Assembly (NCBI RefSeq): GCF_024357955.1
Contig: NZ_JANEYT010000006.1
Span: forward strand, 1-64,000
DNA: 64,000 nucleotides
DNA from: Photobacterium pectinilyticum
Lineage (GTDB): Bacteria > Pseudomonadota > Gammaproteobacteria > Enterobacterales > Vibrionaceae
Direction: 5' to 3'
Within the stretch, counting starts at the first letter, position 1; the number at the start of each line of letters is the position of its first letter. Both the position numbers and the translations under genes were made by a program. The notes beneath the pieces are model-generated. The model was not told where the DNA came from. It saw only the letters and a list, made by a program, of their open reading frames with translations, and ran no database searches. This document shows, in pieces, positions 1-5,158 of this stretch.

Positions 1-774
1 CACGGAAAAGTGAACAGCATGCAACGGTATCGCTGTAAGAATTGCTTGAAAACCTTTATGGCTACGACAGGGACACCGTTGGCTCGTCTTCATTACAAAG
101 AACAATGGGGTCACTACATGAAATGCATGCTGGAGAGCAAAGTGCTTCGTGTCAGCGCCCGAGAGTGCGGTATTAATCTCAAGACCTCATTCCGCTGGCG
201 ACACCGATTTCTGGAATTACCTACAACCCTTAATGCATCAGGACTTGAAGGAATTATCGAAGCTGATGAAACATTGTTCGCATACTCAGAGAAAGGTTCA
301 AGGACACTGACACGAAAACCCAGAATACGGGGCATGAAAGCATCGAAGCGTGGCCGCTCCAAAGAAGATTGGGTTCCAGTCCTCACCGTTCGTGATCGAG
401 GTAAACATACCTTTGAAGCGCTCCTCCCTAATGTTTCAGAAGAGGCATTAGCCAACGAATTGAAGGGAAAGCTGCAAAAAGATAGTGTCCTTTGCACCGA
501 TGGCTTGCAACCGTATGTCGCCATAAGCCTACGCAATGATTTGATCCATAAAAGGCTGAATGTATCAGCAGGGATCAGGGTGATAGATAAAGTGTTTCAC
601 ATTCAGAATGTTAACGCTTACCACAGCCGCCTAAAGGGTTGGATGAAACGATTCCACGGAGTAGCGACGAAATACTTAGAGCATTACCTTGGTTGGCATC
701 GATACATGGATGTGACTGAAGAAATTAACGAAAACAGGATGTTAAGTCTTCAGCAACAGTTAAAAGGAACATAG
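1..774 (+). mobile_element. IS1595-type (ISXO2-like) transposase, 5'-truncated by window edge
   Basis: The reading frame is already open at base 1, so the true start and the first half of the N-terminal zinc ribbon lie outside the window. Visible is the ribbon's second half (RYRCKNC), then an ISXO2-like catalytic domain: an EADE motif around 258-270, a CTDG motif around 495-505, and the family signature YHSRLKGWMKRFHGVATKYL near 619-678. This is a DDE-type transposase acting on its own element. No stop or frameshift interrupts the visible part, so it may be functional. I could not identify the right terminal inverted repeat in the downstream DNA, so the element's right boundary is undefined. 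Classification is by motif recognition only. Confidence 0.88.
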
Positions 775-1461
775 CGTATAGGTAAGTCTTCATTAAGACT
801 ACAATTGATAAGGTTAAGAGTTAAATGCTTTGATTGGCTTGGTGACTTGTATGAATCGTAATATTTATCTTCTCATATAGTACTGCAATTGACACCTCCA
901 AATAAAGCATTGATTTTTAACGTTTAAGCTTCGTAGTTCAATGAGATGAGCTTCAAGATCTGATGCTTGAAATGCAGAGCCTAGGCAGTAACGCCCAAGG
1001 TGAGCATGATGACATGGATGGGGCTTTAATTTTAAATACCAAACAACACAAATGGAACAAATTATAACGAGTTGGTAACTCGTAACTGTTGATCTTTGAA
1101 GCCATTTTTTGCAGCTACTTGTAGGCTATTTATATACAGTAAAGACTTTGAACTGTAATTGTTCTATCTGACAAGCCACTAACGCTGTAAAAAGGAATTC
1201 AAGTGCTGCCCAAATGGGTGGCAAAAAGCGTTTACTCTTTGTTGAGAGGTGTTTGACTTAAAATGGCTAGTCGGTACACTTCTTGCCTTGATTCACACGC
1301 TTTTGACTAGACGTCTCCATCGAAGAGAATTCAACCATAAAAAGATAACAGCCCCTAACCCCACAGAAATTTGAAGTTAGAGGCGGTATCATATGCATTT
1401 TGCACTTTTTGTTAGACATCAACTTTGGATATGTTGTGAGTAATTTGGAAATAGTAAGAGT
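775..1461. other. A+T-rich non-coding stretch after the IS transposase
   Basis: No convincing gene is present. It must contain the right end of the IS1595-type element, but no terminal repeat could be paired because the left end is outside the window. Small hairpins occur: AGTCTT/AAGACT at 785-800, ACGAGTT/AACTCGT at 1067-1083 and an imperfect CCCCTAAC/GTTAGAGG near 1352-1386. The promoter for the downstream glycosyltransferase pair is presumably here but no strong one was recognised. Confidence 0.5.
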
Positions 1462-2547
1462 ATGAGAGTAGCTATCGCGATTGATCGGTTATCTAAAGGC
1501 GGAGCGCCGAAGGTGATGCTATCACTGGCAAATGAGTTGTTGACACTTGGTCATGAACCACATTTTCTTTTGATATCTGAGGAAAATATCTACAATCTGC
1601 CTAAAGAAATCAATGTTCATTACCTCTTTAAGAGTAATGACAAAAGGCTTAACAGATTATTCAACCTCGATAAGGTCGCTAATGAACTAAATGAAAAAAT
1701 TGCGAAAATCGAATCTGAGGTCGGCCAATTTGACCTGTTTTTGTCTAACCTAGACAAAACAAATTTATTGATGTCCAGAACATCAGTTAAACCATTATTT
1801 TTTGTTATACACGCATCAGTGGAAGAAGAGCTCAAAAGACACGCAATGTTGGGGCCGTTAAAATATGTAAAAAAAATCAGGTCAAAACTAGCGCTTAATG
1901 GCCACCATTTGATCACCGTTTCAAAAGGTATTGAAGAAGAGATTAGAACTAAGGGTAGAATTAAACCAGCATCGATCACCACAATATACAACCCATTTGA
2001 TATTGAGGATATTGTATCTAAGTCACTAGAACCTAACCCAGAAATTCCTAGTGGCGAGTATTGGATTCATATTGGGCGTTTTGTACAACAAAAGAGACAT
2101 GACATCCTTTTTGCATCTTTATCAAAGATGGAAAACAATCTCCCTATTGTTTTGCTTTGCCATAAGCCCAAGCAAGCAAGGAAACTGGCGAGAAAATACG
2201 GTGTTGAAGATCGCTTGATTATCCCAGAATTTCAGTATAATCCCTACCCATGGATTAGAGCAGCTAAAGGAATGTTATTAAGCTCTGATTTTGAAGGACT
2301 TCCAACAGTTTTAATTGAGTCTCTGATATGTGGAACTCCCGTTGTAAGCACTGATTGCCCACATGGCCCAAAGGAGATTTTATTGGATAATTTGGCTGAA
2401 TATTTGGTGCCGAGACGTGATCCAGAGAAACTGGCCCAAAAAGCCGATCTATTGTTGTCAAGAACGATAGACTTGACTGATTGTGGTATTGAAAGCAAAG
2501 TGGCATCAGAAGTGGTGGCTAAGCAATATCTGGGGTTGATGGATTAA
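1462..2547 (+). CDS. Family 4-type glycosyltransferase
   Basis: A 361-residue GT-B fold glycosyltransferase expected to move a sugar from a nucleotide-sugar to a growing surface glycan at the cytoplasmic face of the inner membrane. Visible family features are the N-terminal GGAP loop (13-16), the linker IYNPFD (175-180), the start of the C-terminal Rossmann domain at HIGRF (203-207), and the nucleotide-sugar site SSDFEGLPTVLIES (274-287) with the E-x7-E arrangement, followed by CGTPVVSTDCPHGPKEI. Only 4 bases separate it from the next gene, so the two are probably co-transcribed. Its A+T content is higher than that of the rest of the window, consistent with recent acquisition. Donor and acceptor sugars cannot be read from sequence. 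Confidence 0.85.
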   Translation: MRVAIAIDRLSKGGAPKVMLSLANELLTLGHEPHFLLISEENIYNLPKEINVHYLFKSNDKRLNRLFNLDKVANELNEKIAKIESEVGQFDLFLSNLDKTNLLMSRTSVKPLFFVIHASVEEELKRHAMLGPLKYVKKIRSKLALNGHHLITVSKGIEEEIRTKGRIKPASITTIYNPFDIEDIVSKSLEPNPEIPSGEYWIHIGRFVQQKRHDILFASLSKMENNLPIVLLCHKPKQARKLARKYGVEDRLIIPEFQYNPYPWIRAAKGMLLSSDFEGLPTVLIESLICGTPVVSTDCPHGPKEILLDNLAEYLVPRRDPEKLAQKADLLLSRTIDLTDCGIESKVASEVVAKQYLGLMD

Positions 2548-2551
2548 TTTT

Positions 2552-3550
2552 ATGTCTTTTTTACCAGCCAAGAAAAAAATCGTTTTCGAAAATACCTATT
2601 TTAGTTTGTTCATTTATGTGCTTTTAGATGATGACTGGCAAAATAGTGATTATATCTTTTGGGGGAATCGATTTACGTTGAACTGCGTGAAGCGAATGGC
2701 AAACACTGTAAACGTATTAGCATGCTCCTACCATTATTTGCCTAGGGTAATACCTAAGTTGAATAAAGCGCCGATTCGGTACTTTAAGAGAAAGATTGAG
2801 CAAAAGCAGATTTTTAGAAGCTATGATATTTGTGTTGGCAATGCACGTGAAATAAACAACCCTTTGATAAACATAGACCGAGTTCAAATTGACGACGGCG
2901 TGGGAACAACTCATGTGGAACTGGCTAACGGTCCAAAGAATAAAAGCGTGTTAAATCGCTTTCTGAGTCGACTCGTTCTCAAAGAAGCCACGAAAATTTC
3001 TAAAATTGGAAAGTTTTATCTCAGCCAAGACATTGAAGTAAAAGCTGAGTTCAAAGAAAAGATCGAAGTTCTTGATCTAAATGCTTTGTGGGCAGAAAAA
3101 ACTGAAGAGCAGCGAGCCCAGATACTTGAATTGTTTGATGTTGATGCGAATGAGTTTGAATGCTTCGACAATAGTTACAGTGTACTCTTCACGCAACCTT
3201 TGAATGAAGTTATTTCGGGTTATTCTGAGCAGAGTAAGGTTGATGGCTATAAGACTCTACTTAAAAACTTAGACATAGATGAGTCAAAATTGATTATCAA
3301 ACCTCATCCAGCGGATCAAACGGACTATACTGTGCACTTTCCTCATGCATCGGTTCTTCGCCCAAGCTTTCCTGCGGAAATTATGTCTTTATTAGGCATG
3401 GAAGCGGATAAGGTTATAACATTAACCTCGACAGCCGTTGAGCTTTTTCGACATAGCAGTCGAGAGGTTATCTACGCTAAAGCTCCTGATTATTTTAAAT
3501 TGCCTGAAAAGCGTGCAAAAGCATTCAATGCTCTTAATTTTAAAAAGTAG
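2552..3550 (+). CDS. Sialyltransferase-like glycosyltransferase (GT52/polysialyltransferase type)
   Basis: This 332-residue protein carries the two motifs shared by bacterial sialyltransferases of families GT38/GT52/GT80: a D/E-D/E-G motif (IDDG, 113-116) and an HP motif (KPHP, 250-253). A serine/threonine-rich motif follows (TSTAVELF, 292-299), and LFTQPLNE (212-219) resembles GT52 enzymes. In the known families these residues bind CMP-sialic acid, so the likely role is adding sialic acid or a related nonulosonic acid to surface polysaccharide or lipooligosaccharide. It follows a GT4 gene by 4 bases and shares its low G+C. No sialic-acid synthesis genes are in the window. Specificity is inferred; a capsule-type transferase with another donor is possible. 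Confidence 0.65.
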   Translation: MSFLPAKKKIVFENTYFSLFIYVLLDDDWQNSDYIFWGNRFTLNCVKRMANTVNVLACSYHYLPRVIPKLNKAPIRYFKRKIEQKQIFRSYDICVGNAREINNPLINIDRVQIDDGVGTTHVELANGPKNKSVLNRFLSRLVLKEATKISKIGKFYLSQDIEVKAEFKEKIEVLDLNALWAEKTEEQRAQILELFDVDANEFECFDNSYSVLFTQPLNEVISGYSEQSKVDGYKTLLKNLDIDESKLIIKPHPADQTDYTVHFPHASVLRPSFPAEIMSLLGMEADKVITLTSTAVELFRHSSREVIYAKAPDYFKLPEKRAKAFNALNFKK

Positions 3551-3793: not shown

Positions 3794-5158
3794 ATGAAAT
3801 CGGAGATGATGATTAACAAAGGTAAGCCAGGTACGGCAAGAGAATACGCAAAAGTCCCCAAAGGGCGCCTCTCTCGTTTGGGACAACTAGGTTCATTGGC
3901 AACGCGTGTTGCTGGCAGCATGGTCACCGAAGGGGTTAAACAACTCGCCCAGGGAAACCGCCCCAAAGCCAGTGAGTTATTACTTACCCCAAGCAATGCC
4001 AAGCGTGTCGCAGAGCAATTAGCTCAACTTCGGGGGGCGGCAATGAAGGTGGGGCAGCTACTTTCTATGGACGCTGGCGACCTGCTACCCCCCGAGTTGA
4101 CTGAGTTGCTCGCCCGTTTGCGGGCAGAAGCTAAAGCCATGCCCATCAGCCAACTCAACGCAGTCCTGCAGGATGAATGGGAGGTTGATTGGCAAGACAG
4201 GTTCCAAACCTTCTCTTTCTACCCCGTTGCAGCAGCTTCAATTGGTCAGGTTCATTCAGCCACTAACCTCAATGGCGAAAAGATAGCGCTGAAAATCCAG
4301 TACCCAGGTATAAAAGAAAGTATCGACAGTGATGTCGATAATGTCGCGACATTACTACGGGTATCAGGTCTATTACCCAAGGATGTCGATTATAAAGATT
4401 TGCTAGAAGAGGCAAAACAGCAGCTTCATGCTGAAGCCGATTATCAACTCGAGGCCTCATTACTCAAGCAATACCAACAGCACCTTGCTAATGATTCTCG
4501 TTACCTCGTCCCCTCTGTTTTCGATCAGTTGACGACTGAAAACATCCTTGCCATGCAATTTGTCGACGGCTTGCCAGTGGAGTCACTGGCGGATCAGCCG
4601 CAGCATACCCGTGACCTAGTCGTGGAGCTTGCTTTCGAATTGCTGTTCAAAGAAATGTTTGAATTCAAACTGGTACAAACCGATCCAAATTTTGCAAATT
4701 TCCAATTCAAAGAACAGACCCAACAATTGGTTTTGTTAGATTTCGGGGCGACTCGTGCCTACCCCACCCATGTTGCAGAAGGGTACCAACAACTGCTTAG
4801 CGCCGCCCTTTATCACGACAAAACGTGTATGAGTGATGCGCTACGACAAATCGGCTTTTTCAGCCAACCAATTACCCCCTCACAGCAAAGTGCCGTGATT
4901 GATCTTTGCTTGGAAGCCTGCGAACCGATCATGACAGAAGGCGTGTTTGACTTCGGCCAAACCGACTTAGCTAAGCGTATTCGAGATGCAGGCAGCGCAC
5001 TGAGCATGAAGGAGAATTACTGGCACGCCCCACCTGCGGATGCAATATTCTTCCACCGTAAATTAGGTGGGCTTTACCTTCTGGCTGCTCGACTCAAAGC
5101 AAAAGTCAATGTAAGGGAGATCTTTTCTCCGTATTTATTGGCTCCAACAAGTACATAA
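3794..5158 (+). CDS. ABC1/AarF (UbiB-like) atypical kinase family protein
   Basis: A 454-residue member of the ABC1/ADCK/UbiB atypical kinase family, which supports isoprenoid-lipid (often ubiquinone) metabolism through ATPase activity rather than classical protein phosphorylation. In order: the KxGQ motif (KVGQ, 85-88), the alanine-rich nucleotide loop AASIGQVH (147-154), the nucleotide-binding lysine in ALKIQYPG (165-172), a catalytic-loop variant QTDPNFANF (295-303) and the metal-binding DFG (316-318). It lacks the C-terminal membrane helices of UbiB itself, so it is a paralogue rather than UbiB. It is monocistronic, between a terminator and a convergent small gene. Its substrate is unknown. 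Confidence 0.85.
   Translation: MKSEMMINKGKPGTAREYAKVPKGRLSRLGQLGSLATRVAGSMVTEGVKQLAQGNRPKASELLLTPSNAKRVAEQLAQLRGAAMKVGQLLSMDAGDLLPPELTELLARLRAEAKAMPISQLNAVLQDEWEVDWQDRFQTFSFYPVAAASIGQVHSATNLNGEKIALKIQYPGIKESIDSDVDNVATLLRVSGLLPKDVDYKDLLEEAKQQLHAEADYQLEASLLKQYQQHLANDSRYLVPSVFDQLTTENILAMQFVDGLPVESLADQPQHTRDLVVELAFELLFKEMFEFKLVQTDPNFANFQFKEQTQQLVLLDFGATRAYPTHVAEGYQQLLSAALYHDKTCMSDALRQIGFFSQPITPSQQSAVIDLCLEACEPIMTEGVFDFGQTDLAKRIRDAGSALSMKENYWHAPPADAIFFHRKLGGLYLLAARLKAKVNVREIFSPYLLAPTST

Follow-up and report, generated by a model that had tools for sequence, protein, structure and literature searches.

A glycosyltransferase gene pair of Photobacterium pectinilyticum may be a displaced lipopolysaccharide-core module whose GT52 enzyme attaches Kdo

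The two adjoining glycosyltransferase genes described here lie at one end of a 64,000-nucleotide stretch of the Photobacterium pectinilyticum genome (the window). We suggest that they are a displaced module of the lipopolysaccharide (LPS) or lipooligosaccharide (LOS) core, now found outside the waaA locus, in which the second enzyme, a member of family GT52, would add a Kdo cap; judged from sequence, we give this reading a probability of a little under 0.6. The role in the LPS core is the better supported part of the proposal, and the choice of donor draws on what the genome lacks and on precedent. The GT4 enzyme encoded by the first gene would work in the cytoplasm, extending the growing core by a hexose or N-acetylhexosamine, and the GT52 enzyme would then cap that core with Kdo from CMP-Kdo, which would be the only CMP-activated ulosonic acid that this cell is seen to make. 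We infer which acceptor and donor are used and which enzyme acts first, and for the displaced copy both expression and function are predictions. Kdo itself is a sugar generally made by Gram-negative bacteria.

The first gene (positions 1462..2547, + strand) encodes a protein of 361 aa that matches the GT4 profiles PF00534 (E=3.7e-20), PF13692 (E=4e-20) and PF13439 (E=7.1e-12) and contains the E-x7-E motif as EGLPTVLIE, read in the translation, so that profile and motif both place it in GT4. The second gene (2552..3550, +) encodes a sialyltransferase-like GT52 protein of 332 aa (PF07922, E=3.7e-23). The frames are on the same strand and separated by 4 nt; in three relatives the corresponding ORFs, as called, overlap by 4-11 nt. 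The initial annotation had described two tightly spaced glycosyltransferase genes, the first of them a GT4, with a composition unlike the rest of the window, and all of this holds: the G+C content of the pair is 38.3% versus 48.0% for the window to the right of position 3550, and the two genes have the lowest G+C among the window's 24 ATG-initiated ORFs of at least 900 nt. Since the orthologs discussed below are likewise low in G+C (GT52 28-32% and GT4 33-37%, in surrounding stretches of 38-41%), the composition seems to characterize these genes as such more than to mark them as newly acquired. The enzymes PglJ and LPS 1,6-galactosyltransferase are also of GT4 type, but the window protein scores far below equivalog level against both (102.8 bits against NF050063, cut-off 500, and 80.4 bits against NF007396, cut-off 385), and the exact sugar therefore cannot be read from the match.

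The assignment of the second gene to the GT52 family of bacterial sialyltransferases is likewise upheld. Its product scores 82.6 bits against PF07922 (cut-off 26.1) over residues 147-296 and 24.3 bits against PF07388, the GT38 polysialyltransferase profile (cut-off 23.3); this second match, over its cut-off but marginal, is much weaker than the first, and the protein does not fit GT38 better than GT52. No match to a GT80 profile was found, PF07922 and PF07388 being the only matches in a Pfam scan with E up to 10. The initial annotation had proposed this three-way comparison of GT52, GT80 and GT38, and by profile it favors GT52. The sialyltransferase motifs that it had pointed out are all present: the D/E-D/E-G motif as IDDG (residues 113-116, codons 2888..2899, +), the HP motif as KPHP (residues 250-253, codons 3299..3310, +) and the S/T motif as TST (residues 292-294, codons 3425..3433, +) within TSTAVE, which begins at residue 292. 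An alignment of 19 distinct GT52 proteins (20 rows, with the protein of genome G229 entered twice) shows D115, G116, K250, H252 and P253 without variation and S293 conserved at 90% or more; some outlying members of the full set of 43 GT52 proteins deviate at these motifs. An AlphaFold2 model built from two sequences only, the window protein and its ortholog from P. lutimaris, reached a pLDDT of 29.5. Sequence searches of the PDB with the window protein gave nothing meaningful, and a profile built from the Vibrionaceae GT52 proteins, searched with a limit of E = 1, retrieved no PDB chain either. No relative was present among the viral contigs, phages and plasmids searched, and a search of genome contigs with the single GT52 protein gave a match in P. 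lutimaris only.

P. lutimaris (contig NZ_PYMH01000002) carries the pair at the same place, with a GT52 protein 95% and a GT4 protein 92% identical to those of the window. To its right in the window is a gene for an ABC1/UbiB-like kinase (3794..5158, +; PF03109, E=1.4e-59), whose P. lutimaris counterpart is at L002 11298-12662. To its left in P. lutimaris are ECF riboflavin-type transporter genes (L002 4891-8360), of which the window genome shows only short matching fragments (L046, G000:C47, 76-638), indicating that the islet has decayed along its left side. A GGCGGTA at position 1382, resembling the RfaH/ops consensus, was dropped as a candidate site: P. lutimaris does not conserve it, and 17 copies of the 7-mer are present over the two strands of the window.

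The transposase gene noted earlier beside the pair is indeed of IS1595 type (10..774, +; NF033547, E=3.8e-57; PF12762, E=9.4e-16), an incidental neighbor outside the pair. Because base 1 of the window (G000:C167:1-64000) is base 1 of contig C167 and falls inside this element, the transposase frame is open to the contig start and runs off the contig end. As read from the sequences, the element has the ends CGCTATG...CATAGCG and is flanked on each side by TATAGGTA, the right copy at 777..784 and the left copy near the end of contig C47; transposase family, inverted repeats and 8-bp target duplication are thus all those of an IS1595 element. The P. lutimaris site has one copy of TATAGGTA and no IS. 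Since the IS has a target duplication of its own and is absent beside the P. lutimaris pair, mobilization of the pair by the adjoining IS is ruled out, the suspected tie between the two falls away, and by these sequences the IS is an independent insertion. Nor does the flanking sequence bear out a larger neu, pse or leg locus to the left, a possibility raised in the initial annotation: beyond the IS the sequence continues into the end of contig C47 (5.5 kb), which carries uvrY, uvrC and pgsA, and this rules out a larger glycan locus there. No other glycan-synthesis gene was recognized around the P. lutimaris pair in an ORF list covering 8.9 kb to its left and 10 kb to its right, in which six ORFs on the two sides and a GH16 hydrolase were family-scanned.

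A role in the LPS core is suggested by the places in which orthologous pairs are found. Three Vibrionaceae genomes, G229, G136 and G126, have both genes (GT4 57-61% and GT52 44-47% identical to the window), and these closest pairs outside Photobacterium are, in all three cases, inside the waaA-coaD LPS-core locus in the order c352-GT4-GT52-c370. Homologs of waaA, kdkA, a GT9 heptosyltransferase gene and coaD are present in each of the three loci, with waaA, kdkA and coaD over their NCBIfam cut-offs in 3/3; waaA encodes the Kdo transferase and kdkA the Kdo kinase. Of the flanking genes, c352 matches PF04464 weakly (23.1 bits against a cut-off of 22.1); the homolog of c370 is a GT4 gene. The window pair is itself outside the waa locus. 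In the waa loci of the window genome (C123) and P. lutimaris (C48), the gene next after c352 is c367, with no pair between them; c367 shares 73-75% identity with c370 of G126 and G136 and 69% with that of G229. The gene order is thus that of the relatives minus the pair, which in these two genomes lies at another place. The G126 locus has a further feature, pseudaminic acid genes directly behind GT4-GT52-c368 (L050 10530-15985; PseB 537.8 bits, PseI 519.1 bits).

As to the donor, the draft of the window genome, in 200 contigs with a completeness rating of 100%, yielded no nonulosonate synthase: the single PF03102 match (44 bits), a candidate NeuB, is a DAHP synthase (NF006421, 481.4 bits). Neither did we find a nonulosonate cytidylyltransferase in this genome, as the PF02348 matches are KdsB and, more weakly, IspD (TIGR00453, 250.7 bits) only. 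KdsB, the enzyme that makes CMP-Kdo, is encoded at C167:69818-70468 (TIGR00466, 385.8 bits, cut-off 155.2), which provides for a supply of CMP-Kdo, and it is the sole ulosonate-activating enzyme found in the window genome. With no route to activated sialic acids apparent in the cell, the GT52 enzyme probably attaches Kdo in their place. The nonulosonic-acid capping proposed at the outset for this strain thus lacks its pathway, as far as a draft of this completeness shows; absence of any such pathway had been named beforehand as the finding that would speak against the proposal, and it is what the draft genome presents. We conclude that the sialic-acid interpretation is probably wrong for the window strain. 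By the same evidence the cell makes no CMP-nonulosonate of its own, as far as the draft goes, and might still take up a ready-made donor.

P. lutimaris differs in this respect. It has NeuB (460.8 bits, TIGR03569) and NeuC (437.6 bits, TIGR03568), both over their cut-offs, and a cytidylyltransferase that is nearest to PseF (139.7 bits) and below the PseF cut-off. A 7.8-kb stretch of P. lutimaris holding neuB, the cytidylyltransferase gene and neuC is replaced by approximately 0.5 kb in the window genome, where both sides of the missing block are present on one contig. The NeuB/NeuC-type genes of P. lutimaris (L051 8643-12099) sit among flagellar genes, named by eye, and this placement suggests flagellin glycosylation. 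With its 95% identical GT52 protein, P. lutimaris, like G126 with its pse genes, could have a nonulosonate donor for this enzyme.

We asked how GT52 and NeuB are distributed across the family. PF07922 matches (E up to 0.001) occur in 42 of 329 Vibrionaceae genomes, 35 of them over the cut-off and 7 below it; the 42 genomes contain 43 matches, of which 30 entered a first tree and all 43 a second. Within the genus, the window GT52 protein itself has a match in 3 of 52 genomes: the window genome, P. lutimaris (G024, 95%) and G030, whose protein is a 29% relative. A true NeuB was taken to be one with a best E below 1e-40, and weaker matches, scoring at most about 44 bits (E 1e-8 to 1e-12) and confined to the window genus, were set aside as DAHP-synthase-like, that of the window genome being the only one of these named by family scan. 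So defined, and counted by hand, NeuB is present in 153/329 genomes overall (12/52 in the genus, 141/277 outside it) and in 34 of the 42 GT52 genomes. One of the genomes scored as positive, G133, has both of its NeuB genes split over two frames (G133:C2:2593306-2594020 and 2627328-2628132), either because the genes are broken or because of sequencing errors.

Every GT52 genome without NeuB falls into one of two clades of the 43-protein tree (support 100/99 and 100/100). Clade A, which includes the window protein, comprises G000 (the window genome), G024, G229, G136, G126 and G030, with NeuB in 3/6; clade B comprises G012, G045, G131, G305, G181 and G220, with NeuB in 1/6. Together they have NeuB in 4/12 genomes versus 30/30 of the other GT52 genomes and 119/287 of the genomes without GT52. 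By Fisher's test on these hand-counted numbers, treating related genomes as independent, clades A and B do not depart from genomes without GT52 (p=0.77), and the other GT52 genomes do (p=2.6e-11); the two clades are only two lineages, and their genome counts are accordingly not independent. On the tree, the NeuB labels need 5 changes, a number as low as which was reached in 2 of 500 shuffles. Proximity follows the same division: NeuB is within 15 kb of the GT52 gene in 1/12 genomes of clades A and B versus 28/30 of the others, a count made from hand-entered coordinates, and in the two remaining genomes NeuB is on another contig. The eight GT52 genomes without NeuB, examined within a set of 14 of the 42, have KdsB in 8/8 and a nonulosonate-type cytidylyltransferase in 0/8. 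G131 has a second KdsB-like match (182.6 bits).

In clade B the order of the genes is reversed, GT52-GT4, within waa/LPS-core loci, and five of its six genomes are without NeuB (L052, L053, L054, L055, L056, L058). Homologs of waaA and kdkA are present in 6/6 of these loci, waaA also by NCBIfam in 5/6, and the GT4 neighbors are 30-35% identical to the window GT4. Three residues of the GT52 protein, R99, F263 and P264 (window 2846-2848 and 3338-3343), occur in 11, 12 and 12 of the 12 clade A and B proteins versus 6, 8 and 4 of the 31 other GT52 proteins. They are among six columns listed, without a null test, as shared by the two clades and rarer elsewhere, and they are possible donor-selecting residues, a lead only.

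These distributions bear on the explanation that fares best after our own, namely that the GT52 protein does act in the LPS core as a sialyl- or nonulosonate transferase, its donor pathway having been lost or never present in this strain, leaving an orphan or an enzyme that uses ready-made donor taken up from outside. Membership in GT52 is consistent with it, as are the NeuB, NeuC and cytidylyltransferase of P. lutimaris and the pse genes that in G126 immediately follow the pair and c368. There is also a precedent in the gonococcus, which, according to the passages cited, does not synthesize CMP-Neu5Ac and uses it when supplied (PMC8092323). Nevertheless, 8 of the 12 clade A and B genomes are without NeuB, yet all 12 GT52 reading frames are free of stops and keep all three motifs, and NeuB is no more frequent in these clades than in genomes that have no GT52. 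The P. lutimaris nonulosonate genes, as noted, are among flagellar genes. Sister enzymes, moreover, coexist with different nonulosonate genes: the G126 and G136 proteins are 79% identical, and their genomes have, respectively, PseB and PseI, both over cut-off, and a NeuB-type synthase that at 377.1 bits is below its cut-off of 399.65. We regard this explanation as unlikely.

Pfam describes GT52 as also holding alpha-glucosyltransferase activity, and an LPS core needs hexosyltransferases; the protein might then use a donor that is not CMP-linked, such as UDP-glucose, as an ordinary core hexosyltransferase. This seems to us quite improbable, since the 12 clade A and B proteins keep, along with the S/T motif, the D/E-D/E-G and HP motifs that the cited passage attributes to bacterial CMP-sialate-dependent enzymes (PMC4202792). 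A role of the pair in capsule, exopolysaccharide or protein glycosylation is very improbable: the pair is now outside the waa locus, and a distant clade A relative, in G030, is on a fragment with a flippase-type gene (PF01943), a GT2 gene and acyltransferase genes, with no adjoining GT4 gene and away from any waa locus, which counts against the Kdo and core reading, but the closest non-Photobacterium orthologs of both genes (3/3) lie between two genes that the window genome keeps in its waa locus, and no flippase, polymerase or exporter gene was recognized around the islet in the ORF lists of the window and P. lutimaris.

A Kdo-capping GT52 enzyme in the LPS core would have relatives in function among characterized proteins, as far as the cited passages describe them. 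When Neu5Ac is in short supply, LsgB of nontypeable Haemophilus influenzae draws on the cell's own CMP-Kdo (PMC6069110). The Haemophilus lsg operon has been expressed in a laboratory E. coli K-12 strain lacking a CMP-Neu5Ac synthetase (PMC6069110). Lst of Neisseria, which is assigned to glycosyltransferase superfamily 52 and described as a homolog of LsgB, uses CMP-Kdo when CMP-Neu5Ac is absent; of the two donors it prefers CMP-Neu5Ac, and little terminal Kdo is present (PMC8092323). Like these enzymes, to which we compare it by description and not by sequence, the window protein would be a sialyltransferase-like GT52 enzyme that caps LOS and is able to transfer Kdo. Unlike them, it is encoded in a pair with a GT4 gene, and since 8 of the 12 clade A and B genomes show no nonulosonate synthase, Kdo would be its regular donor and not a fallback. 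The arrangement also recalls KdoT of Acinetobacter baumannii, described in the passages cited as a Kdo transferase beside a GT4 partner, GnaT, in LOS core assembly (PMC12856342). According to that source, KdoT is assigned to no characterized GT family, depends on an SRRT motif and adds inner-core Kdo; the window protein has no SRRT and has instead the PF07922 match and the DDG and HP motifs. Kdo outside the inner core has been described as well, the cited passage on Plesiomonas LPS placing alpha-Kdo in the outer core (PMC3210612). In titles and the openings of abstracts, with subscription papers mostly outside this scope, we found no report of Kdo transfer by a GT52 enzyme in the Vibrionaceae.

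We would extend the proposal tentatively to the family, at slightly less than even odds. Two GT52 lineages in Vibrionaceae LPS-core loci, A with the order GT4-GT52 and B with GT52-GT4, may be dedicated Kdo transferases and not sialyltransferases, in which case the name "sialyltransferase" is wrong for part of the GT52 family and the window contains a lineage A copy outside its locus. The label sialyltransferase is readily given to GT52 genes and encourages claims of host-like sialylation; genome context suggests that in these two lineages the label is probably wrong, and would place Kdo further out on the LPS core. If this is true, what serves Haemophilus and Neisseria as a fallback reaction is the regular reaction of lineages A and B. 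It would extend the Kdo-capping activity of LsgB and Lst to environmental marine bacteria and would give a natural set of enzymes in which to look for the residues that decide between Kdo and sialic acid as the donor sugar. It would also matter for the phages and hosts that read the LPS core.
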